A stretch of 64,000 nt of DNA from Cladophialophora immunda (taxonomy: Eukaryota; Ascomycota; Eurotiomycetes; Chaetothyriales; Herpotrichiellaceae): positions 1,173,720 to 1,237,719 of the forward strand of contig NW_015622543.1 in assembly GCF_000835495.1 (NCBI RefSeq). Direction: 5' to 3'. Both the position numbers and the translations under genes were made by a program. A model generated the notes under the pieces. That model was not told the origin of the DNA. It did no database searches and saw only the letters and a program-made list of their open reading frames with translations. Of this stretch, positions 29,940-45,317 are shown in pieces (position 1 is the first letter of the stretch; every line of letters starts with the position of its first letter).

Positions 29940-31366
29940 TTTTCAAGCTCTTGAAGATGCCGAGTGCGTTCAGGAGACTGGGGGGGAGGGTGTGGAAGAG
30001 AGAAAGAATAGTAACTGCGCTTTACCAAGGGATGTAACTCCAAAACATCAAACGGTCAATGGACATTTCAACCCAAATCTTACCAGAACCATTGCCTCTC
30101 TATATATCTGCCTATATACCCGTACGACACATTCTTTTCTTTCTTCTCGCCCCAAATTCCCAATAAACCGCTCGTCCGCCTTATGATCACCGTGGAGTCC
30201 CCAAAGTGGCATGTTATTGGCTCGCGCCCGCTCGAGGCTCTCTCGATCTTGATTGGACGCGTCTCTAGAGAGGCGACATTATCTGCTACAACCTCCAAGA
30301 TTTCCTTCTGACGGCCTTCAGAGCCCTCTAACTCGTATCCCAATCCGAGGGTTACCTGCGACCTACTCTCTTAAAGGTATTCCCTCTTCTCTGTGCAGGG
30401 ACATGGATCTATCTCTTGGAGTTTCTTTTGTTCCTTCACCAGCACGCTTCCCAGTTCGAGAACAGAAATGAATCCTGCTTCCAACGACGTGGACCCAGAA
30501 CACCACCGATCTATGCGCAGAAAACGACGGCGTCTCTTGCATGAGTCCAATGCCTGGCTTCAACAGCTAAGCAAATATTGGCTTGTCGATCAATGATTGG
30601 GCAAGTCAGTGAAATTTCCAGAACTCAAATTCCACGCCCACGCAAGCAATTCGAATGCTCCTATATTGGCCAGTGACTTGCTACTCGGTGTCAAAGAGCG
30701 GCCATCGCCTCTATGGCCCTGTCGTCTACTTTCTTGCTATACGAGCTTCACCGCGCGGGCAATGCCCGCTCTTACCTCCACTAAGCACATCCCGCAACGA
30801 TCCCCCGCATTATGCAGTTCCCCCTCCTTTTGTGCCTTGATGAACGGCCACTCTCCTTCGCAGTGTCAGCAGAGTATAAAAGAGGATCTGCGCTTTAATT
30901 GTCGGAACGTTGCGAGACGCTGTCTTTCTTCTGGCCGGTCTGGGCTCTACTTCCAGTATTCGCAGATCTGAGGACGGCAGCAGTTCCGCCCTCGTGACAG
31001 GTCGGGCTGCGCAATTGCAGTCATGACCCTACCCACACTATTAGTCTGATCGGATGGCCTGGCAAGAGAGGTCTCAAATCTTTCTTCTTTATTGACGGTC
31101 TAGGTCCTTGTGGTCGTGGATACTTCGGAAGTCTCCGAGAGCGATAACAGCAGTAACGTGTTGCCTTGAGTGGTAGGTTCGTTGGAGAAGACTTGATATA
31201 CTAGGGCTGCTTAGGAAGGCTGCGCTCGTTTGAACATACTCGCAGCACTAGTACGCGTATCTCACCCATTTTTTGCAAGGACAAGACCCCCAAAAAAGAT
31301 CTTGTTGGCCAATATAAGCCAAAACATTCTCATATTCTTCTCCTTGAATTCTAAATCAAAATCAAA
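29940..31366. other. Intergenic, 1.43 kb: PhzF promoter and upstream region of the 2OG oxygenase
   Basis: No gene is supported despite its length. A TATAAAAG sequence at 30875-30882 (plus strand) has no recognised gene within the usual 100 nt, so it is an orphan element or marks a non-coding transcript. Frames of 60-125 codons here have no family features. Confidence 0.4.
31313..31318 (+). promoter_or_regulatory. Probable TATA element and CCAAT box of the 2OG oxygenase
   Basis: TATAAG lies 49 nt upstream of the ATG at 31367, directly after a GGCCAAT. A CT-rich and CAAAATCAAAATC leader follows, typical of fungal start contexts. Confidence 0.45.
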
Positions 31367-32500
31367 ATGAAAGCCGACGTAGCAACAAATGGAGCAGAGA
31401 GCCTCCCTCCTTTCCCAGAAGACGTTCTCACGATCCCCATCGCCAAGATCTCGTACCAGAAGATCCTCGCCCTAGACGAGGAGGAGATCGCGAAGACGCT
31501 GAAAGCATGCCAAATGGATGGGTTCTTCTATCTCGACCTGACGACCACGGAGTCAGGCAGGCATCTCCTGGAGTTGAGCTCAGAGTGCCTGGCCCTGGCG
31601 AAACGCGCCTTCGCCCTCGCGCAGGAAGAGAAGGCGGTTTTCGCGAATGAAAAGGGCACGTCGATCTTTGGGTACAAACCCATGGGGTCGGTCAAGAAGA
31701 CCGATACAAGTGCCGTCCGTGACTCGACCGAGTTCTTCAATGTAGGTGGTTTCCCTGCTCTTCAGAGAGGACAGGAAGGGGGTAGTGGCGTCCATTGAAA
31801 TAGGCCTCCTTTGAGTTACGCTCGCTAATCTAGGCGTCGTCCGTAGGTCGCAAAGGACCACATCCACGGCTTCACCGAGCCACGACCCTACCCGGCACCG
31901 ATCCTAGAGGGCAAGCCGATCCTGGCCGACTTCACGGCCGGCGCACATGGCTGTGGCATGGCCATCCTGCGGACGCTCGCCCGCGCCTTGGGGGCGGACC
32001 CGGCGCTGTTCGCCGAGACATGCGACTTCGAGCACCCGTCCGGCGACCACGTGCGGCTGACCAGGACGGTCCCGGTGGAGGTCGCCCAGAAGCGCATCGG
32101 GCTGTCGTCACACACGGACTTCGGGGCCGTGACGGTGCTGTTCAACTGGCTGGGCGGGCTGCAGATCCAGAGCCGGGCCAAGGAGACCGAGGGCGACTGG
32201 CTCTATGTCAAGCCGCTGCCCGGCCATGCCATCATCAACCTGGGCGACTGCATGGTCAAGTTCACCAACGGGGCGGTCAAGTCGGCCAAGCACCGCGTCG
32301 TGCCGTCGCCTGGCCGGCAAGCCACCGTGGACCGGTACAGCGTCGTGTACTTTGTCCGGCCGTGTGACGATGTGCTCATGACCCCGTTGAAGGGCTTCGA
32401 GGCGGACCAGGTCATCAAGGTGGCGGGCAAATTTGGCGACAACAAGCTCTACACGGCAGGGGAATGGAATCGCGCGAGGCTGACACAGATGGGAGCATAA
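31367..32500 (+). CDS. 2-oxoglutarate/Fe(II)-dependent oxygenase, isopenicillin N synthase-like
   Basis: The exons are 31367-31741 and 31847-32500 (105-nt intron), giving 342 residues. The N-terminal DIOX_N-type region has 'LKACQMDGFFYLDL'. The facial triad is H214-x-D216 and H274, with the 2-oxoglutarate-binding R288-x-S290 ('DRYSVVYF'). This is a plant/fungal non-haem oxygenase of the isopenicillin N synthase fold that hydroxylates or desaturates small molecules. The second exon is distinctly GC-rich compared with exon 1 and the flanks. The acceptor at 31846 was chosen over an earlier TAG because only it keeps the frame. Substrate unknown. Confidence 0.88.
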
Positions 32501-32893
32501 GTGTAGTACCATAATTAGTTTTACGTCTCCCCTGAACAAGACTCGAAGAGGTGGTGGGTACTGGAGAGATATTCCGAGTGTCCAATACATGAAAGACGTC
32601 GTTGGGACATTACATGATCGTGCCAATAATCCTGAGACGCCGTCGACAGTACGCATAGGATCAAATGTATCCCTTTTCACAGCCTGTCAATATTGCCTCC
32701 AGGCCTCAATAGGATCAGGCATGAAGTCAGCGCCAACCTCCCAATTTTAAGCGTTCTAGGATTATTGTGCTTTTGGTTGAAATCTCCCAGCTACACTGTT
32801 TGGGTAGGTCCTTGCAATGCTCGAGCCACCGTAGAAAGTGGTCATTATGAGTGTCGCTAGGACACCAAAGACACCTATTTCCATCGCTCTGCC
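32501..32893. other. Intergenic, 393 nt, between convergent genes
   Basis: Only 3' flanks are expected here, and no gene is supported. Confidence 0.4.
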
Positions 32894-34291
32894 CTAGTTG
32901 GACGAGTGACGATCTCCTCCGTAGGACGTTCTCTTCATAATCTTCGGACTGCACTCTGATACCGATCGTAGGCCTACCAGACCCATGGTGACATCGAAGT
33001 CCTGCAACGGGTTGTCAGCATGGACTTGCCCATGATCAGAAAGTCGAGAACAGCACTAAGAATACTTACTCCCAGAAGTCCCATCAGGACCTCGCGCGCG
33101 CCAGCCTTTCCGGCAATTCCAAGTCCGTAGACCCACGGTCGACCGATCAAGACGCCCTTGGCCCCGAGACAGAGAGCCTTGAGGATGTCGGCACCCGTCC
33201 GCACACCGCTGTCGAACAGCACGGTGAGTCGATCGCCCACGGCTTCCACGATCTCCGGGAGCACATCCAGCGTGGCGACCGCACCGTCGACTTGCCGTCC
33301 ACCGTGATTACTGACGACGATCCCGTCGATTCCCATCTCCGCGGCGATTCTGGCGTCCTCGACATGCTGGATGCCCTTGAGGACGACGGGGCCCTTCCAG
33401 TGCTCGCGTATCTCCTGGAGCTCGTCCCAGCTGTGCGCGCGGCCCGAGAAGATGTCGGAATTCCACTCCCGTGCGGCGGCCATGACGTCGGCCTCGACGT
33501 CGACGCCGGATTTCTGGCGAAATTGGGCTCTGAAGACCGGGTCGGAGAAGCCGGTCTGGTTGCCGCGGCCCTTGATGAAGGGGACAAAGCCCTCGTCCAG
33601 ATTAGCCGGGCGCCATCCCAGAGCCCACGTGTCTACCGTGACGACGAGAACAGTATATCCGTTCTTGGCTGCTCTGTTCAACAGGGAAATGGTAATGTCC
33701 TTGTTATGAGGCCAGTAGAGCTGGAACCACCGCGGCCCACTCTTATTGGCCTTTGCCGCGTCTTCGATGCTGCTCGTGGCCGCCGTGCTGTGGATATAGG
33801 GAATTTCAAGATCCGCAGCGACCTCCGCAACCCCGATTTCTCCATCCTCGTGGAAAACGCTGTGGGCACCCACCGGAGCGAGCAGCACGGGAGTCTTGTA
33901 CTTTTTGCCGAAGACGGTCGTGCTCAGATCCCTCCGTGTCGCAGGGACCAGCATCCGAGGGATCAACTAAGCGGCCAAAAAAGAAGCCCATCTGGCATCA
34001 GCACAAGGAACATCCAAAGTAAGGGAGCCAGGAGACGTCTGAACTATCTCTCACCTTCCACTGCCGAAATGCCAGCCTGTTCGCATCCATGGTCGCGTGT
34101 TCGCCAGCTCCTCCGTATAGGAAATTGAACGCCTTGCTCTGCATGGCCTTTCGGGCCTGTTCTTCGAGCTGGTTTGGATCGCATGTGACAAGCGGCAATC
34201 GACCACGAAGCATGCCATTGGTATAGATGTCGTATTGGTGCTGTCTGAATCTGTCCGAGGCGGCAAATGCATCGAACGCCTGGTCACCCAT
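32894..34291 (-). CDS. FMN-dependent 2-hydroxyacid oxidase/dehydrogenase (lactate 2-monooxygenase-like)
   Basis: The exons are 34055-34291, 33070-33966 and 32894-33001 (introns 88 and 68 nt), giving 413 residues. The TIM-barrel FMN enzyme motifs are clear: 'LLAPVGAHSVFHEDGE', 'FQLYWPHNKD', 'VTVDTWALGWRP' and the catalytic His300 in 'SNHGGRQVDGAV'. The C-terminus 'DFDVTMGLVGLRSV' only appears after the last splice. Length and the 'FNFLYGGAGEHATM' N-terminal part match fungal enzymes annotated as lactate 2-monooxygenase. It oxidises an alpha-hydroxy acid using FMN; the acid (lactate, mandelate or other) is not determined by sequence. Confidence 0.88.
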
Positions 34292-35304
34292 TGCTGCGAC
34301 TGGTGGGTCTTGTACTGGTGCTTGTTGATATTCCCTCGCAGGACAATATCTCAGGCACAAAAGTCCAAGAGAAAGTGACACAAGCCTTGGGTTATCAACG
34401 AGGAGTAGCTTGCAGAACCATCCTGTCACTCGCGGAATTCATATACAAGCTACCTGCTCGAGTCTCGGTTCGTTCCGGTCTGTCGAGAGGTATTTGCCAA
34501 ATTCGAAACAGGGCTATAGAGCTATATGGGGGGAGTAGGAGCCAGCAGGAGTCAGTGCATGGAACACGCGGAATTGAGATGTTTGGAAACCCTTGAGGTT
34601 TGGTGACCGCGGAAAATATAACGCGTACAGGTGCCCAGGGTATGTGACAACTAGGGCGTGTACATAGGATCGTCATGGAGACGCTGAGCTCGTGTAGCAG
34701 CTCGCTTACAATGGAGAGGCGATGGCGTATGCCCTGATCCTCCGTTCAGATGAGAAGCATCTTTAGATTCTAGTATTTAACAGTACGTTGGCAGTTAGAA
34801 GATTTGATTTCTGCCGTTCTGATAGATTTTAAGACACGGCGATATGGCGTACCAATGGGCCCATACCGATCTGGTTGTGGATTGCCTTTCATCTCTCTAG
34901 CTACCAACAAGTGTGGCTCTAGCTGTCAAGGCAGGACATGATTGATGAGCGTTAGTGAGACCACAAGATTGATTCTTACCGCTCGACTGCAGAATTAATA
35001 TTTTACGAACGATCATTATGGCACCCAGAAGACTGACAGGACCCCGATAGAGGCTTGGGGAAGTTGAGATCGACCCGGATGGGGCATGTTCTCCACACTC
35101 TAAGAACTGAGTCGTACTCGTCGGCGGGATGAACGGCATTCAACTAGGAATTCTGCCGTTCCCAGAAAGAAGGATTCCCCGCATAGTTTGCAGTACCGAG
35201 CACAGATACAAAGATGCCAGCGCGCTTCCCCTCAGAATTACTTTCTCCCACTGTTTCAACACCATCAATCCTTCCATGATATAGCTCAAACAGAGGCCTA
35301 CAGA
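34292..35304. other. Intergenic, 1.01 kb: divergent promoters of the FMN oxidase and CMD-like genes
   Basis: The flanking genes diverge, so both promoters are here. No coding frame is supported. An AT-rich section lies at 34750-34830. Confidence 0.45.
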
Positions 35305-36072
35305 ATGCGTCTCAACCCAGTTGCTGATGATTCCGTGGCGGACCCCAAGGAGAAAGAGATAGTAGAGCGGGTAAAGGCCAGGCGGCCTGGGAATCAGCTG
35401 TTGGATCTGGACCGGGCATTGCTGATTGCTCCACAAATGGCGGATGGATGGTCAGTTTGTCTTTTACCAGGAAGAAAAAACAAACGCCATGTTGGCGATC
35501 GTCTTTTTTTGGCCCACCTGTTTCCTATGGCCCATATCTCAGAAGATCGTCTTCAATGGATCCCTATTAACCCTCGTTCGTCTCCTAGGAACTCCTTCCT
35601 GGGCTCCGTTCGCAGCGACACAAAAAACTCCCTCCCGACCAGCATCCGGCAGGTCGCCATCGCACGCACAGTGGCCCTGAACCGCGGCTGGTATGCCTGG
35701 ACCGCGCACCACGACTTGCTCCTCGCCGCCACGGACACCAAGATCTCGACACCAGCAATCGATTATCTCCTGTCTGCCGAGCCCAAATCTGCACACGCCA
35801 CCCCGCCTAGCGGAAGCGGCTTCACCGAGAAACACATGGCGGTGATTGCCTATGTGGACTATATGACCAAGGATCTCATGGTGCCCGACGCCGTGTTTGA
35901 AAGGCTTCGGCAGCAAGGGTTCAGCGACAGAGAGATTGTGGAGATCACGCTATGTAGCTGTGCGTATAATTGTACGACTAGATTTCTGTGGGCGCTGAAT
36001 GTGGGGAATGGCATCGACTATGAACAAATGGCACCCCTACCGGCAGATCCAGGGCGGAGGGGAACCCTATGA
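35305..36072 (+). CDS. Carboxymuconolactone decarboxylase-like (AhpD-fold) protein
   Basis: The exons are 35305-35450 and 35589-36072 (138-nt intron), giving 209 residues. The helical AhpD-like/CMD pattern is visible: 'IRQVAIARTVALNRGWYAWTAHH', then 'AVIAYVDYMTKDLMV', 'LRQQGFSDREIVEITLCSCAYN' and 'TRFLWALNVG'. The redox CxxC of peroxidase-type AhpD is absent; C-S-C-A-Y-N occupies the region. Relatives in fungi are often annotated as 4-carboxymuconolactone decarboxylases, acting in aromatic degradation, but most are uncharacterised. It neighbours an alpha-hydroxyacid oxidase, consistent with an aromatic acid route (inference). Confidence 0.75.
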   Translation: MRLNPVADDSVADPKEKEIVERVKARRPGNQLLDLDRALLIAPQMADGWSVCLLPGRKNKRHVGDRLFLAHLFPMAHISEDRLQWIPINPRSSPRNSFLGSVRSDTKNSLPTSIRQVAIARTVALNRGWYAWTAHHDLLLAATDTKISTPAIDYLLSAEPKSAHATPPSGSGFTEKHMAVIAYVDYMTKDLMVPDAVFERLRQQGFSDREIVEITLCSCAYNCTTRFLWALNVGNGIDYEQMAPLPADPGRRGTL

Positions 36073-36602
36073 GTGAAGAAGATCCGCCGGCAGAGAAGTG
36101 CACTCAGCCCAGGAGTAATGAGCTATAGAACGCGGTGGGAAGAATTGGCAGTAAATACCACGATACTTACAGGATGATTTCCACCTCATCAAAGCCCATT
36201 TCCGGCTTCTGAACGGCTTCGTTAGCGAGTAAACGACGTAGGACTACCGTACATGCGATTGGTGTCGCGTAGTTCAGTATATAGGTAGTTCGCTATCAGG
36301 TAGCCTAACTTAGTGCCGGTGGGCAATGGTGCTACCTCAGCAGCTATTCCAATCGAAATATTGGGGCTCGGTGTAAGGCAAGAAGCATCAGCACTCCTTC
36401 AGACCAGTATCAACCAACTGTAACGGGATGCACAGGAACTCCGCACTTGCAAGGACACTCAAATTGTGCTCGAACACTACTTGAAGCGAGCGCCGTTTGA
36501 CACTCAGAAATACTTCTACACACTCCTCCCTCAACCTCTCGCGAGAACACTCTTAGTAGGTCCATGCGTTTCCGTATAATGGGGTGAGCTCGCCTACTGT
36601 TC
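36073..36602. other. Intergenic, 530 nt, between convergent genes
   Basis: It lies between the 3' ends of the CMD-like gene and the secreted peptide gene. No coding frame is supported. Confidence 0.4.
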
Positions 36603-37002
36603 TCAGGTAGACTCAGTGGCTGGGGTACGCTTCTTGAAGCATCTGTAAGACCCAGGATTAGCTAAAGCTAGACATAGCTGAAGAAAAGCGCGTACGTAGC
36701 ACGGCCACCGCCAACCTGGTGGGAATGAGTGCATCTATCTTCGAGAGCCGCGTGAGGTTCCGCAACAGGCTCTGGAGCTGGCTCAGGGATAGGTTCAGGG
36801 GCAGGGGAACGCTTCTTGAAGCATCTGTAAAGCATTAGCTAAAGCCCGAGATAGTTGAGTAAAGCATATACGTAGCACGGCCGCCTCCAACTTGATGGGA
36901 ATGAGTGCATCTGTCTTCAAGAGCTGCCTCAGGGTTTGGGATGGCGACTCCGACGGTCAAAGCCGTAAAGACGAAGATGGTGGACAGCACGGAAATCTTC
37001 AT
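36603..37002 (-). CDS. Secreted tandem-repeat peptide precursor with Kex2/dipeptidyl-peptidase processing sites
   Basis: The exons are 36872-37002, 36696-36824 and 36603-36642 (introns 47 and 53 nt, both phase 2), giving 99 residues. A clear signal peptide (1-20, ending VGVA) is followed by two copies of 'ALEDRCTHSHQVGGGRATCF', each ending KKR (a Kex2 site). The stretch before copy 1 (IP-NP-EA) and before copy 2 (ten dipeptides from SP to HA) are entirely X-Pro/X-Ala pairs, the substrate of Ste13-type dipeptidyl aminopeptidases. Trimming would leave the same A-L-E-D-R-C start in both copies. Two cysteines per copy (C-x12-C) could form a disulphide. The layout is that of an alpha-factor-like pheromone or Kex2-processed peptide, but the core does not match known W-C-type pheromones. 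Function unknown. Confidence 0.75.
36628..36935 (-). repeat. Tandem duplication of an exon-intron-exon unit in the peptide gene
   Basis: The block at about 36815-36935 recurs at about 36633-36750. Both copies contain the end of one exon (ACTCATTCCCA, GGCCGTGCTAC), a complete intron with GCTTTAGCTAAT branch region and TTACAG end, and the start of the next exon (ATGCTTCAAGAAGCG). Exon parts are nearly identical at the protein level, with synonymous changes. The introns differ more (47 versus 53 nt). So the duplication copied intron and exon together and is not very recent. Confidence 0.85.
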
Positions 37003-38923
37003 TGTCGGTTGCTAATAGTTGTTATTTGAACTGGGAAACAAGGTACTTCTTTTGGACTTGCTTGGATCGCGTTGGTGAGGTACAGCAAAAGAAGAGTGAG
37101 GGAGGGTGGCATATATATTTCTTCCCGGACGTCTTCTATCTCCAAGCCAGTTGTGTCGTGCATGGACGTAGAGCCCAGAATTTCCGTGGATCCTGCATCC
37201 GCAGAATCAGAGCTGAGACATTCCCCGTTTAGATTACCTGGGACCCATAACGATAGCACGAGTGAAGCTGCCTTTGACGATTGCTCCGGTAAGCACCAAC
37301 ATAGGGAGCGTGAGCGCTACTGAGGAGGCGCTTCTCGGTTTTCATACCTAATGACCAAATCGTCAGTAATACTTGATCCATCTCATGAGAAACTCATCAA
37401 AGCTAAGGATCTTTTGAAGATCTTCTCCGAGATCAAGGGGTATTCACTCCTAGGCAACGGACAGGCTGACGGATGGTCCCGAACCAGATAGATTATGCCG
37501 GTGATTTGCGAGTACGGGGCCATCAGGCATGGAAAGTCATGCAATTTACTGGTGCCAGACGGGCAGGCTATGGTATATTTCGCCGTCTCTCTTTAGAATA
37601 AACACATCCTAGCAAGCCATCAATCAACACCGGAATTACAAAGCTATGGCGCTGCGGAATATTGAGAAATGGTTGGGCAACACACATCGATCGGAGCATT
37701 GGAAGCGATGCACGGCGAATCGATTCCGCCTTGGAAACTATACACATAAGCTACTCTCTACGGGCACCGAGCACTGGTGGAGCTGTCGCAGGAACGATCC
37801 GATCAATAAGGCATCGACTGGTCGTTTTCATCCCCGGAGGCGGTCCTTTTCACTGTATTATTCGACCAATTTGGCTAATGGTCCGCCGATGGCTCTAAGA
37901 GGCAGCCACCATTTACTGCAGCGCATTGTGGAGATATGACAAAGCAAGAAAGTCAGCAGTAGACTGTAGAGGCTGGGCATCCATTCGACTCATGGCTGAG
38001 TTCAATTCGTCATGATTTCAAGCTTTCAGCCCCGATGCTGATGGCGCTCCCAATAGACTCAGCACAGAGAGGTACTATTCGGTCAAAGAATCTTCGGATA
38101 TGATAAAAAACAGCTGGACGGTGATGAATGATGACGGTGGATCGGCAATGGACTTCAGAAAACTATTCATGTCGCATTTCGGTAGGATAGTTCAATTCAC
38201 TCTCTACGTCAATACCGAGTCAATATAGAAAAGAGGTCTGAACACTAGCATTGCCAATCAGGGGCAACTTTTTGGGCGAGCCTCCGTCCCGATCGTTCGG
38301 GGCGCTGCCCTTGAGCCGAGACTTCGCGAGCGGATCCTTTAGCAGCCAGACCCTACGGTAGCCACCTACTTATTACTGAATGCGGTAATATTACTTCTTG
38401 CTTCCGCCCCCGGAGTTCCAGCCTTGTTTCATAAACTATGGCAAACATAGAAGCCAAGAGGCTCAAATGCTGGGCATAAATTGTGAGGGTTCTAGTCTTT
38501 AGGCGATCGCTAAGGGACTGTGGACCTCTTCCTAACACCTTGCCTCCGTCTTACTCGTGTAAATACGAGGGAATGCCTATTGAAAAATCCCCTTCCCACT
38601 TTTGGCATTACCGACCAGCAATAGAATTGAGCAGAGAAAAGCGATTTGGATTTGCCTTCGAAAGTGGGGTGGGAGATTTCAATGGGCGCTGCATCTTAGC
38701 GTTTAGAAGTATTCTTTCTCAATCAGATCTGATCCTTTGGTGCCTCTCCTGTCAAAAGTGGAGAGATCTTACATCTCATCAAATGAAACGAGTGCCGATA
38801 TCTGTACAGCGCAGAAGCCCGAGTGAGGTCCATCAACAGGGGAGCAGGGATTTCGAAGGTGAATGTAGAATCTTGAACTACTAGGAAACTAGTACTGTAT
38901 AAGTAGGGCTGTTAAGGAAAGAT
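37003..38923. other. Intergenic, 1.92 kb, no supportable gene
   Basis: It holds the peptide gene promoter at its left end and the kinase promoter at its right end. Frames of 60-133 codons (for example 37646-37939 and 38483-38884) show no family features and have odd composition. Stretches may be decayed sequence, but no transposon ends or family motifs are seen. Confidence 0.4.
37111..37119 (-). promoter_or_regulatory. TATA box of the secreted peptide gene
   Basis: The minus strand reads AAATATATATG about 110 nt upstream of the ATG at 37002. The leader between them is rich in CAA and AAC. This supports transcription of the peptide gene. Confidence 0.5.
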
Positions 38924-40257
38924 GTGCTTGTCAATAACCAGACATCCACTCCTGTGTTTGAGCACGAGAGCGATGTCCCCAGACAGTCGTCAGTAGCCTT
39001 TCAAGTCAATCATCTACGGACGCGATCAACACTATCCTTTTCACTTTTGATACTCACAGTGTCCTCTCTGATGCGAATTTCTCATCGCCTCTTGTGTTTC
39101 GCAACAATCGCAACATCAATTCTCATACACAAGCCTTCCAAGGTGGAGCCGTGGGCATGCAACACCCGGATCCCCAGGGTCTTCGAAGGCCCATCTCGCG
39201 AATGCCACTGCCCTTCACCGATATTCTCCACCAAACATCTAGGAGAAGGCACATCTGGCGTGGCGAGAAAGCTCTCCGATACCGCCTCAGGCCAGATTGT
39301 GGTAGTCAAGACACACGGCCTCCGTCACGAAGACGAGAGCGAAGAAGCCTACCTTGCCTTTATACAAAACGAGTACAGAACTGCATCTTCCCTCTGGCAC
39401 CCCAACATAGTAGAGACCTATGACATCTACCAAGACGAGCACGAGGCATGGCATCAGGTAATGGAGCCTCTTGCAGTGCGGTTGGACAGACTTTTGGAAG
39501 TCACGGAAAATGCTTCCTGGGATATCATCGACTCCATTTTCAGTCACATTGTGCAAGGAATCGCGCATATGCATTCCCTTGAGATTGCCCACATGGATAT
39601 CAAGGTCGAAAATATAGGGATTAGTGCTGCGGGCGCGGTAAAAATATTTGATTTTGGGAGCGCGCATCCAATACTCGGCGCCGGAGGTGTCCCGAACCTC
39701 GCCCAGGGTAGGTATGCGATATGCCGAAAGGCAGTGAGACCATTCAACCAGGATGCTAATACTCTAAAACAGGAATCCATGGCACCCTACCATATCTCGC
39801 TCCCGAGATTCTCAAAAACACACCATATAGCCCGGCTGCGGCAGACGTCTGGGCACTTGCCATCCTGTACATCCGCATATCCACTGGCCAATTCCCCTGG
39901 GAGAAGGCCAGATTGTGGGACACCTCTTTCCGCATGTTTTGTCGTGATGATGCGGAGTTTAAACCCACATCAGGCTTGAGGAGTATTGGCGACTTGCCGG
40001 ATCTGCCAATCGACAGCAAATCGATGCGAGGGCCGGCCAATGTACTAGAATTGCTTCCCAGGCACGTCCGCCCAATGCTTGGGCGGATGTTGGATTTAGA
40101 TCCGGCATCAAGACCAACTGTTGACGAACTCGTTTCACAAGGTTGGATCAAAAACTCAAGGAAACCGACCAAAGCTGAGTTGACCCGGTGGGCAGATGTG
40201 CCAGACATATCCGACAACATATCGGTCAGGCCAGAGCTAGTTTCATATGACTACTAG
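38924..40257 (+). CDS. Serine/threonine protein kinase (Hal/Npr-like)
   Basis: The exons are 38924-39707 and 39773-40257 (65-nt intron), giving 422 residues in this model. The kinase core has the glycine loop GEGTSGVA (107-114), Lys129 in 'VVVKTH', Glu150, the catalytic loop HMDIKVEN (223-230; HRD changed to HMD, Asp kept), DFG at 243-245 and the APE-like 'PYLAPEIL'. 'WHPNIVETYDIYQDEHEAWHQVME' recalls the fungal Hal4/Hal5/Npr1 group, which regulates plasma membrane transporters. The first 95 residues are hydrophobic and unlike the family, so the true start may be later or an upstream intron may be missed. Confidence 0.7.
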
Positions 40258-40731
40258 GTAGATAGGCTCGTGTACACTATTATCCCGGGGAGCCCAGCAT
40301 CGGCATGACTAGTCGAAATGCTGTTCTGCTTGAGGGACTGGTGGAGGCGAGATGTTCCCGCTCACGCTTCTATCTAGACGGCCATTCCCCGATCACTGCT
40401 GTCGAACTTCGCTTGTTCCTTTCATGTGTAGAAGCAAAGTCCTTTGATTGCGTGTGTAGAGTTTACACTAACCACGTCTCGGATCCATCTAGCCGTATCA
40501 ACTAATAGACTGCCCGCACGACTGACGCGGATGTATAAACCCACTCTTCCGGCTGTGTATCGGAATCTTGTCGCCGTCCGAGACATTCTGCGGGAACATG
40601 GAGAAATGGACATACAACCCGAAAGCCTTGACCCACGATCGCCAAATTCCAGAAAGATCTTTAATTTCGTGCAGACGGGAGATTTCATGCCAATAGACCC
40701 GTAGCAAAGGAAGCGGCCACTTCCAAACAGA
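40258..40731. other. Intergenic, 474 nt, between kinase and P450
   Basis: It holds the kinase 3' flank and the P450 promoter. Short frames are not supported as genes. Confidence 0.4.
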
Positions 40732-42601
40732 ATGAAAGGCCTTTCAGCTTCTTGCGCATTTGCCGCAGCTGCAGGCGTTCTAACTCACCTTCTGTATTTC
40801 ATCCGGGGCGAGCATCACAGAAATGCACATCTATGGATTACCCGAGCATTTACGGCGGTCTGTCTGCTCGCTCTCGCGGTTCTTCATTTAACACAATATC
40901 GACCATTCCTCGCGGTTGCTGCGACAGTTGCCCTCAGCTCGTCTTATTTGGCTGGCATTTATATTAGCATAGCGTTGTACCGGATCCTTTTCCATCCACT
41001 GCGAAGGTTTCCGGGTCCGTTTTGGGCACAACTGTCCAATCTCTATCACTCATATCTGATCCGAAAGTCTGACAATTACCTTGTAATTCAGAAGCTACAT
41101 GCGAAATATGGCCCCATTGTCCGGACAGGTGAGTGGAGAGCTGCAATACCGGAACATTATGCTCATGAGAAGACTGAAGGCCCAGGTAACTTATCCATCA
41201 ACGACCCAGCGGCAATACCCGTCATTCTTAGCAACGAGTCCAAGTGTGTCAAGAGTCCATGGTACGATCGATCCCTGCCGCTGGTGAACCTACATACCGT
41301 GCGAGACAAAGGGGTACACGATGCCCGGAGGAGAGTATTCTCGAAGGCCTTCTCCCCGTCAGCGCTGCGAGACTACGAAGAAAGAGTCGCTGTGCACTGC
41401 GAGGAGTTCATACGGCAGATGAAACGGATGACAGGCCGACCGTTCGATGCTTCTCAATGGTTTAAATACTTTGGCAAGTATTGCGTGTCGAAAAACCTAT
41501 CTTCTGCTAACGAATCAAAGCATTCGATGTCATGGGTGACTTAGGTCTTGGGAAAGAGTTTCATATGATGAGTTCTCAGACAAATCGCTGGATCCCGGAT
41601 CTTCTCGAGACCAGCATGGCAGATGTTGGTCCAACAACTCCTGTTCCATGGCTTGCGCCGATCCTGCATAGACTCCCTCGCGCCGGGCATGGTGCCAGAG
41701 CATGGTTGGATTTCGTTGGGTCGCAAGTTCAGGAGAGGACGCGAAAGACGGTGGACAGGCATGACGTGAGACTCCCCCGATCTTCGGTATTGTAAGTGCT
41801 GATCTTGTCGCTCAGATTCTGTCTCATCTTGTGGAAGCATATGAGAGTACCGACAAGCGAGATGTCGACTATCAGTGGCTACGCGGTGACACCCGGCTTA
41901 CAATAGTAGGCGGCTCTGACACGACTGCAGCAACACTGACTTTCCTCTTTCATTACCTGGCCAAAGATCCAGTTCAAGTGGAGAAGCTAAGCAGTGAGCT
42001 TGGGCCGTTACTGAAAGGCGGGCCTCGCTTGGACCCAAAGGACGTGTCCAAGGCTCAGCATCTCAACGGCGTGATCCAGGAAGCTCTTCGTCTGCATCCG
42101 GCTATCCCCTCTGGCTTTCCGCGAGTGACTCCACTAGAAGGTATCACCATCAACGACTTCTTCATTCCCGGGGGAACCACGGTCGTTATTCCACCATATG
42201 CTATGCAACACGATGACGCCAATTATGTCTTTGCAGAGGAGTTTATACCGGAACGGTGGTATTCAAAACCGGAGTTGATCAAAAACCCCGAAGCTTTCCT
42301 GACTTGGAACATCGGTAAGGACGCTCACTCCGCGACAACGTGCGATTATAGCTGAAGAACAACAGGAATGAACGGATGTATTGGGAGAGCTCTAGCTATC
42401 ATGGAGATGCGCGACTTGATCACTTACTTCATCCACGCTTTCGAGAGCGTGAAGTTCGCGCCGGGTGAGGATGGTAGGGCGCTGATGGAAGAAACTCGCG
42501 ATCATTTCACGGTGGGCGTGCAGCCATTACGTTTAATTTTCGAGGAGAAGGCCCGGGGATTGGCCAACGGTGAAATTGGCACGGAACCAGCTTCCCACTG
42601 A
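40732..42601 (+). CDS. Cytochrome P450 monooxygenase
   Basis: The exons are 40732-41128, 41180-41473, 41521-41765, 41816-42314 and 42366-42601, giving 556 residues. Introns are 51, 47, 50 and 51 nt. Intron 2 has a GC donor (G|GCAAGT), needed to restore 'FAFDVMGDLGLG'. There are two or three N-terminal hydrophobic segments for ER anchoring. 'HPLRRFPGPFWA' is the proline-rich hinge. The I-helix GGSDTT is at 344-349, E401-x2-R404, 'FIPERWY', and the haem Cys483 in 'WNIGMNGCIG' (the usual Phe is Trp). It resembles fungal P450s of secondary metabolism and aromatic hydroxylation. It starts the 40.7-55.6 kb cluster, with the regulator gene 204 nt downstream. Substrate unknown. Confidence 0.88.
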
Positions 42602-42805
42602 AACCGAGGTTTGTGTTTGGATCTGTGGCCAAGTCGTCGGATGCATGTTGCCGAAGCAGGGGCAAGAGGGGAAACACGCCGAGAGCAACTGATATTGCTT
42701 CCCATCAATTCTGTCATTCTCTTCCATGCTGCTAGACTTCACACACATAGCCCCTCGACATTTTCTGTCCTTGTTGAACGGGTTAAATCGCCAGCAACAT
42801 TCGAG

Positions 42806-45317
42806 ATGCCTCGAGGAGAAGCTGAAGTAGTAGAGCAGCTAGAGACGGGCGTCCCAAATGAACGGCCTAGGAAGCGTGCACGTCAGAGCTGCGATACCTG
42901 CAAAGCACGTAAGACCAGGGTGAGGCTCCTCCTTACCATGGAGATACATATGTTTCGAAGCTATACTGACATCGGATCGAGTGCGTGGGTCGTGGTATGC
43001 TCATCCGCGGCCCTTGAGTAACGTTGCCACCCAACTAAATGGTGTGACCTGCAGCTGGCGAGAGTTGCCAATACTGCAAGGCATTAGGTGTACCTTGTGA
43101 ATTCAACTTACACAGCAGGAAGAGACCATTCTATAGGGTTTCTGGCGATGTCTTCGACCAGTCGATCAAGCTACTTCGCCATTTCGTATCGGAAGAAGAG
43201 CTGCCTGATCTGACGGTAGAGAACATTCAGAAGGTGCTCACCAAGGTGAAAATGCACTCTAGTGACCGCTCTGTAATGGAAACACCCTCTAGAGAGATCG
43301 AACGCAGTGGTGTCGAATATACTTACCCTGCTCCCGATGAGATCCAAGAGGTCGTGGAAAGGGATGAACATCCACTCCTGCAAGAGGACTTGGGCTGTAT
43401 GGTATTGGATTCCCTGGGAAAATATCGTGTGTACCTCCCATCTGCCCTGGCAAGATATGTCGCTCACGAGGAGAAGGCTACGTCGGAGCAGAGTCTTCCA
43501 TTCGTTGGAACCATGCTGCTCGAATGGCATGCGCGAGCGCAATCCATCTGGATCCCAAAGTCATATCACCATTGAAAACCGGTCTGTTGCCGCCCCTCAC
43601 GCCAGAGAGTACAAGAACCACCCGGACTGGAGAGATTTACTTGCCATGCCGACAGATCTGTATGCAATATGTGACGCGGTTTTTGGAGCATATACATTGC
43701 ATTTACTGGTTTTACTCGACGGAACAATTGTACACACACCTTGAGAGCACCTTGCACGATCGAGGGTCGACGGCGACTGCTTCATGGCTCTGTTCGCTCT
43801 ATTCTATCCTTGCTTTGGGGAGTATGCGATCAGCAGATGATACTGCCGGATCCGGTACAGATGCACCCCAGGATTGCAAGCATACAGCCGACTATCTTGC
43901 TATGGCAAAGGATCAGTCATCGGCCGCCGCAGATGAAGCTGACATAGAGGCAATCAAGGCTTTCGGGCTCTTGGTGAGCAGCCCTCGTTGAGAGTGTTTT
44001 GTGCATGTTCTAACTCGTGCCAGGCCTTAGCAATGCATGGCTCCTGTTACAGTATGGCTGCCTACCTCAATGTGGGAACTGCGGTCAAAATTGCCTTTTC
44101 ACTCGGACTACATAGAGACATGTGCTCAAGGACCAAGGACCTGGTCGAAAGGGAGAGATGCAGACGCGTGTGGACGACAATCTATACGATGGACCATGAA
44201 ATCGCAATTCGTCTAGGCTATCCCTGCGCGATAGTTGACGAGGCCGTCTTCCTGAATATCCCACCAGCCCTTGAACAGGCACGTTTGAGACCCCTACGGT
44301 CACAATTGATTGCTCACGTTTAAAATAGGTGTTGGATCCCGGACCTTATATGCCGCTAGGTTACCAGGCTCTATCACTGAGTCTGGTCAAACTGAGAAAG
44401 AAGATCAGCTACGACTGTTTCCTTGAACCAGCACATTCCGGCGGTCGACTGCCGATAAGCCGAGTGTTCAACAATCTGACACGCCTGTGTAGGTGGCTGG
44501 AGAGTATCCCTTCGTATCTCCATTGGAAATCATTTCTTCCGCCTCAACATCGACGAGCAGTGGCAGTGCTACACTTGCGGTACTGGATCTCTGTCATCTT
44601 CATCACACGCCCTTTCCTTCTCGTCTCGATTCCGAAGCCGTCCCGCATCACGGTTCCAGCAAAACAGCAATGCTATGAGCAGTTAAGTGCCCGGTGCATC
44701 CAAGCGGCCGAGAGGGCGGTGGAAGTGGTGAAGCACATGAAACAGGCGGAGATCTTGTCGAGCATGACCCTCCTTGACTGCCACTCCATTGGAGAGGTGA
44801 TGTGGATCCTGATACTTGCGTTTCAGAAGCACGGCGACAGTGGACATCAGCAGCTCATCAAGTTCTGCCTGGACACCCTCAAGAGCATGGATCAAGTAGG
44901 TTGGTGTGAGAAGGTCTTGCCTGATCTCGAAGCAAGAGTGCAAGAAAGCGGTGCCTTGGACTCAGTAGGCCGTCTCAACGGCTCACGCCAAACACTTCCC
45001 GAACGAATACCTCCGCAAAGCAACCCAGGCTCTAGAGTCAACGACCGCCCAATGATGCAGGAGCTTCCATCCGAACCTCCCCAAGCCTTAGAAGACTCAT
45101 TTGATTTCCCTGACTTGTAAGTTGCGCCTAGGCTCTGAGGGTTTTCTCATTTCCTCTGGCGATTCTAATCCGACGATTCCCGCATAGTGATTTTAGCAGC
45201 TCTCAATTGGACGCCCTGGAAATGGTCGAGCTCGACTTTCACTCGGAGTTGCTGGGAGTATTCGATGGTGCGACTTTATCGACCCCATTATCAATGTTCG
45301 GTATGCCCCAGGTGTAG
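42806..45317 (+). CDS. Zn2Cys6 fungal transcription factor
   Basis: Seven exons: 42806-42919, 42982-42994, 43055-43426, 43477-43973, 44024-44278, 44329-45116 and 45188-45317, giving 722 residues. The zinc cluster C29-x2-C-x6-C39-x7-C47-x2-C-x6-C57 is complete only if a 13-nt microexon carrying C39 is included. A fungal-specific middle-homology domain follows ('RMACASAIHL', 'FSLGLHRDMCSRTKDLVERERCRRVWTT'). The acidic, aromatic C-terminus ('DALEMVELDFHSELL') could be an activation region. The intron at 44279-44328 appears to use a GC donor. Its position between P450 and dioxygenase genes suggests it is their regulator (inference). The start at 42806 is 27 residues before the cluster. Confidence 0.82.

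Follow-up and report, generated by a model that had tools for sequence, protein, structure and literature searches.

A probable secreted signal-peptide precursor with two identical cores and an alpha-factor-type Ste13 signature in Cladophialophora immunda

The window analyzed here, a 64-kb stretch of DNA (C3:1173720-1237719) from the 42.2-Mb, 39-contig assembly of Cladophialophora immunda, carries a small gene on its minus strand at 36603..37002. As read from the sequence, the gene has three exons that run from ATG to TGA, and its 300-nt spliced coding sequence specifies a precursor of 99 residues. The predicted product has the order MKISVLSTIFVFTALTVGVA-IPNPEA-ALEDRCTHSHQVGGGRATCF-KKR-SPAPEPIPEPAPEPVAEPHA-ALEDRCTHSHQVGGGRATCF-KKR-TPATEST; that is, two identical 20-residue cores (ALEDRCTHSHQVGGGRATCF), with three X-Pro/X-Ala pairs ahead of one copy and ten ahead of the other, and KKR after each. 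An earlier note on this DNA had proposed such a gene, and we found its coordinates, strand, splice sites, and product all to be as claimed; the two identical two-cysteine cores, the Kex2-type KKR sites, and the Ste13-type dipeptide runs that it described are likewise present. The features, in window positions, are the following.

36603..37002, minus strand: whole gene, 99-residue precursor
36872..37002, minus strand: exon 1, 131 nt
36943..37002, minus strand: signal-peptide-like segment MKISVLSTIFVFTALTVGVA; hydrophobic stretch, GRAVY 2.1; putative cut site
36925..36942, minus strand: Ste13-type dipeptides IP, NP, and EA, ahead of copy 1
36872..36924, minus strand: core copy 1, exon-1 part, ALEDRCTHSHQVGGGRA plus two bases of T
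36825..36871, minus strand: intron 1, 47 nt, GT...AG
36696..36824, minus strand: exon 2, 129 nt, a multiple of 3
36818..36824, minus strand: core copy 1, exon-2 part, last base of T, then C and F
36809..36817, minus strand: KKR, Kex2-type site 1
36749..36808, minus strand: spacer SPAPEPIPEPAPEPVAEPHA, ten X-Pro/X-Ala dipeptides
36696..36748, minus strand: core copy 2, exon-2 part
36643..36695, minus strand: intron 2, 53 nt, GT...AG, homologous to intron 1
36603..36642, minus strand: exon 3, with the rest of core copy 2 (T/CF), KKR (36627-36635), the tail TPATEST, and the stop codon
37003..37130, minus strand: upstream region; by eye, a TATA-like ATATATAT about 110 nt before the ATG, a CT-rich stretch, and the start context CCGACA-ATG

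The hydrophobic N-terminal stretch is signal-like by composition and ends in GVA before IP. Both introns contain TAGCTAAT branch-like boxes, neither is a multiple of 3 in length, and the frame stops if intron 1 is retained. Each core copy is interrupted by an intron at the same point, after the second base of a Thr codon. Exon 2 is phase-symmetric, and a transcript without it would stay in frame and encode a 56-residue precursor with a single core; alternative splicing of exon 2 could set the number of cores. This is probably a small, real gene that annotation overlooked, "unannotated" meaning here only that it has no match in the protein database.

When the halves of the gene are aligned, introns included, 118 of 145 columns (81%) match and there are 6 gap columns; these halves are also the two matches (3 candidates scored) returned when the C. 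immunda genome was searched with the precursor. To judge from this alignment, the two-core gene arose when an exon-intron unit was duplicated in tandem and the intron was carried along. A search for tandem repeats within window positions 30000-44000 found none. At the protein level, the copies agree at all 23 residues of core and KKR; six codons differ, and all six differences are silent, for which the probability is ∼1.6e-4 if six changes fall at random (16.0 silent of 69 sites). Across the 56 ungapped exon nucleotides, which take in one extra codon upstream and end at the donor, all seven mismatches lie at third positions and are silent. The introns, by comparison, agree in 38 of their 47 aligned columns, and another 6 columns are gaps. 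Because the introns diverged, recent copying or gene conversion fails to explain the identical peptide; the DNA drifted while the peptide stayed, a pattern that disfavors recent gene conversion and speaks for selection having preserved the core peptide.

The precursor frame is the only one of six without an amino acid difference between the copies. Its nearest rival, on the plus strand, has one such difference and is stopped in both copies. An open plus-strand frame lies beside the peptide gene at window positions 35104-36069; its C-terminal match to carboxymuconolactone decarboxylase is weak and below the cutoff. That the peptide gene is a chance or decayed frame with no working product is, in our judgment, very improbable: the protein database gave no homologue, but the frame and splice sites are intact and the divergence between copies is silent only, beside introns that drifted.

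Homology searches placed the precursor in no known family. Against 5.8 billion proteins, the spliced 99-residue protein drew 99 candidates and a single nonsignificant match (E 2.1, 33% identity over 18%), and the unspliced exon-1 frame drew no candidate with three shared words; candidates were limited to 0.55 to 1.75 times the query length, a range that would miss longer fused gene models. As a control, a neighboring 1255-aa frame matched C. immunda CLAIMM_02982 (98% over 100%), but its 8000 scored candidates gave only three other matches, all distant (22-24%). The control thus shows that the database contains a C. immunda protein, but because it returned four proteins in all, the missing matches say little about other Chaetothyriales, relatives being hardly searchable there. 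Pfam-A matches to the precursor (DUF1930, E 0.028; Trypan_PARP, E 0.58) were below the cutoff, and none of three PDB matches (E 3.3-4.5) was significant. Among the open-license papers listed, we found no title or abstract start on an alpha-pheromone of Chaetothyriales.

Pro or Ala occupies every second residue ahead of both cores, and the count from KKR is even; in copy 1, the even phasing presumes that the signal is cut after GVA. We scanned 341,914 bases in six frames (91 partly overlapping sequences, some of them chosen by motif searches) for two basic residues followed by X-[PA] pairs. Runs of at least six pairs occurred at this locus only (3 matches, being one place present three times); with five pairs there were 4 matches, 1 of them elsewhere, and with four pairs 7, including 4 elsewhere. 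The earlier note had argued that trimming by dipeptides would halt at the same residue in both copies and that such agreement was unlikely by chance. The dipeptide phasing and the even count hold up, but the duplicated segment starts at the preceding P-x-A; the shared end point is therefore partly inherited, and the argument from it is weaker than was stated.

On balance, we think it probable that this is a genuine protein gene whose product belongs among the Kex2-processed-repeat (KEP) proteins, carries an alpha-factor-type Ste13 signature, and is the secreted precursor of a peptide hormone, a reading drawn from the DNA and its conceptual translation. The gene would be transcribed and spliced, and the signal peptide would direct the precursor into the secretory pathway, where Kex2 would cleave after each KKR and a Kex1-type carboxypeptidase would remove the basic tail. 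A Ste13-type dipeptidyl aminopeptidase would then strip the X-Pro/X-Ala pairs, halting at A-L. Two copies of ALEDRCTHSHQVGGGRATCF would be released, in which a presumed Cys-Cys bond would close a loop of 14 residues that turns at GGG, and the mature peptide would most likely act extracellularly as a signal to the same fungus. Its predicted monoisotopic mass when oxidized is 2141.95 Da (MH+ 2142.956; 2+ 1071.981; 3+ 714.990), and the core has a computed net charge of about 0, a pI of 6.9, and a GRAVY of −0.5. Maturation by Kex2 and a Ste13-like enzyme had also been proposed in the earlier note. Its cleavage sites are present and the genome has a Kex2 frame (P_proprotein match at C7:1379380; subtilase-like 556-aa frame) and a DPP-family peptidase frame (C5:81367-82491, 354 bits, a family-level match that does not imply Ste13 orthology), whereas cleavage itself stays a prediction.

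The precursor shares with KEPs that bear a Ste13 signature a repeated core, dibasic sites, and X-Pro/X-Ala runs after the Kex2 site, as these are described in three reports (PMC6339444, PMC7329392, PMC9769878); where they have a signal peptide, it has a signal-like N-terminus. It differs in having only two copies, a core without a match, and an intron within each core; thus, the Ste13-type KEP class is already known, while the core peptide looks new. Identical or near-identical repeats flanked by Kex2 sites mark a KEP, and the precursor has two identical ones, each followed by KKR. Two is fewer than the three or more repeats of the detection filter described in the KEP survey, which counts against our preferred reading, although some alpha-pheromone precursors are described in the same text as having fewer repeats than most KEPs (PMC6339444). 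That reading also has to contend with secreted effector or metal-binding roles, which fit the same anatomy. In its favor, the window has no UstYa frame, like pheromone-type KEPs, nearly all of which lack UstYa in the account given in part of PMC7329392. We chose a secreted signal peptide because, in the relevant part of the survey, the Ste13 signature is reported absent from Rep1, toxic cyclic peptide, and epichloecyclin precursors and the KEPs bearing it are put forward as good hormone candidates (PMC6339444).

The closest known signals of this anatomy are the alpha-pheromones. Precursors described in sections of reports on Onygenales (PMC3464258) and Leotiomycetes (PMC10569646) share with ours the overall architecture, two cysteines, an aromatic residue after the last Cys, and small size, and an 89-aa, two-repeat precursor is reported for Oidiodendron maius (PMC10569646). 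As in alpha-pheromone precursors, Ste13 dipeptides precede each repeat and Kex1/2-type sites follow it. However, the mature repeats are given there as 9-14 residues (PMC10569646), or in a passage of another report as 9-13 (PMC6265332), with a GQ or PG turn dipeptide in the vast majority (PMC10569646), whereas the core described here is predicted to have 20 residues, C-x12-C instead of a short loop, a central GGG, neither GQ nor PG, and no Trp. The earlier note was therefore right to set it apart from W-C...G-Q-C pheromones. By its predicted sequence, the peptide resembles an alpha-pheromone in processing, yet it is not a canonical one, since mature length and turn both fail.

A special case of our preferred reading is that the peptide is a strongly divergent alpha-pheromone of this fungus whose mature form binds the STE2 receptor encoded in the genome; we regard this as unlikely. 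The alpha-factor-like anatomy of the precursor is consistent with it, as are the pheromone receptor frames in the genome (STE2 at C8:207459 and STE3 at C4:1660125) and the C-F end of the core before the basic site, which resembles the C-terminal PCW of pheromones described in part of PMC6339444. It is also favored by our genome-wide motif searches. W-C-x3-G-[QE]-x-C occurs at 15 places, two with a stop inside the motif; inspection of the surroundings of all 15 revealed no signal-peptide/KR precursor and no recognizable pheromone precursor of any kind. C-x3-G-Q-P-C occurs at 26 places, and the 25 examined each contain a single motif. Neither the 20 C-x3-G-Q-G-C places (context seen for 2) nor the 41 TDB-C-x3-G-Q-x-C places (27 scanned for a preceding W, F, or Y; 5 read in context) include a pair close to each other. 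The broader C-x3-G-Q-x-C occurs at 303 places, the positions among the matches listed being on contigs C1 and C2. One place, C8:273147 (WCSRSGQPC), seemed canonical and was rejected because it sits inside a 1246-aa open frame, on the strand of that frame but in another reading frame. At C2:3760429-3760689, one strand carries three C-x3-G-Q-x-C motifs within 261 bases, and their inner residues differ; by eye, a cysteine-rich protein seems more likely here than a pheromone with repeats. A search of the genome for the MAT alpha-box family, run without a positive control, gave no match.

Besides the length of the core and its lack of GQ, PG, and W, several observations speak against the divergent pheromone. 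Of the five pattern searches, four gave motif counts clearly above those of a backward control (15 versus 7, 26 versus 12, 303 versus 148, and 41 versus 15, but 20 versus 18 for C-x3-G-Q-G-C), which leaves room for real motifs that we did not see, although codon bias may account for the forward excess. One of the 15 W-C-x3-G-[QE]-x-C places lies in a 60-aa frame that has no obvious signal peptide, with RR at most 6 residues from the motif. Moreover, a canonical single-copy or intron-split gene could have escaped us, as such genes exist in Onygenales, of the same class (Eurotiomycetes), for which the relevant part of PMC3464258 gives WCTRPGQGC in one copy from a gene with an intron. If the C-x12-C 20-mer is the STE2 ligand in Chaetothyriales black yeasts, the ascomycete alpha-pheromones would include a new structural class in which the short GQ/PG-turn loop was lost, and this would explain why no canonical form was recognized in the genome; this, too, we hold to be unlikely.

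Other functions were weighed against a signal to the same fungus. The earlier note had offered a new peptide signal, an antifungal peptide, and a RiPP; the signal fits best, and a UstYa-type RiPP and a typical cationic antifungal peptide are both disfavored. The Pfam neighbors in the window include FMO-like, PhzF-like, 2OG-Fe(II) oxygenase, FMN-dependent dehydrogenase, protein kinase, P450, and RPE65-type oxygenase genes, and no peptide-specific modification enzyme was recognized among them. All but the kinase belong to an oxidoreductase-type run around the peptide gene (window positions 23755-47474), which may be a catabolic or metabolite cluster, with no obvious backbone enzyme among the frames scanned. 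Its P450, FMO-like, and 2OG-oxygenase genes are of types also found in RiPP clusters. As a precursor of the ustiloxin/dikaritin kind, the product would have its core modified by UstYa-type or other oxidases. Dikaritin precursors (ustiloxin, phomopsin, and asperipin) are likewise secreted repeat precursors cut by a Kex2-type protease, and part of PMC7329392 describes signal peptide, repeated core, and Kex2 sites as common to them. The earlier note had suggested looking for UstYa/DUF3328 genes elsewhere. At least 22 UstYa-like frames occur in the genome (such counts are lower bounds), but none of the 22 found falls in the window; the only one on the same contig, C3:3807921, is ∼2.6 Mb off. In contrast to dikaritin precursors, moreover, ours has no Tyr in its core, which has two Cys instead, and its spacer is of the Ste13 type. 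Given the P450 and flavin-monooxygenase-like genes in the window, we consider the RiPP quite improbable rather than excluded. Elsewhere in the genome, six UstYa-like frames cluster near the end of contig C1 (C1:8165349-8172643), a possible RiPP cluster.

A peptide aimed at other organisms (antimicrobial, effector, or toxin-like) could be made by the same processing route, and the KEP products named in parts of PMC6339444 and PMC9769878 include mycotoxins, virulence factors, and modulators of mutualism. This role is rather unlikely, in our view: with a charge near 0, a pI of 6.9, and a GRAVY of −0.5 the core is not cationic, it can hold at most one disulfide, and the toxic cyclic-peptide precursors, as noted above, are reported in the survey text without a Ste13 signature (PMC6339444). 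We think it improbable that the peptide instead binds metal or serves a redox function (Cys and H-x-H in a small loop), or is wall associated, with no signaling role; C-T-H-S-H and a second Cys in the core are consistent with this, but no family or structure match above the cutoff points to it.

Gene callers easily pass over short secreted precursors whose repeats contain introns, and the KEP survey, with its filter of three repeats, as easily misses those with two copies. If the peptide is made, black yeasts would gain a defined signal whose mass is exactly predicted and which can be synthesized and tested, in laboratory yeast, on the encoded Ste2. Activation of Ste2 would widen the range of alpha-pheromone forms; if Ste2 is unresponsive, a second, nonsexual peptide signal produced by the same enzymes would become the leading reading.
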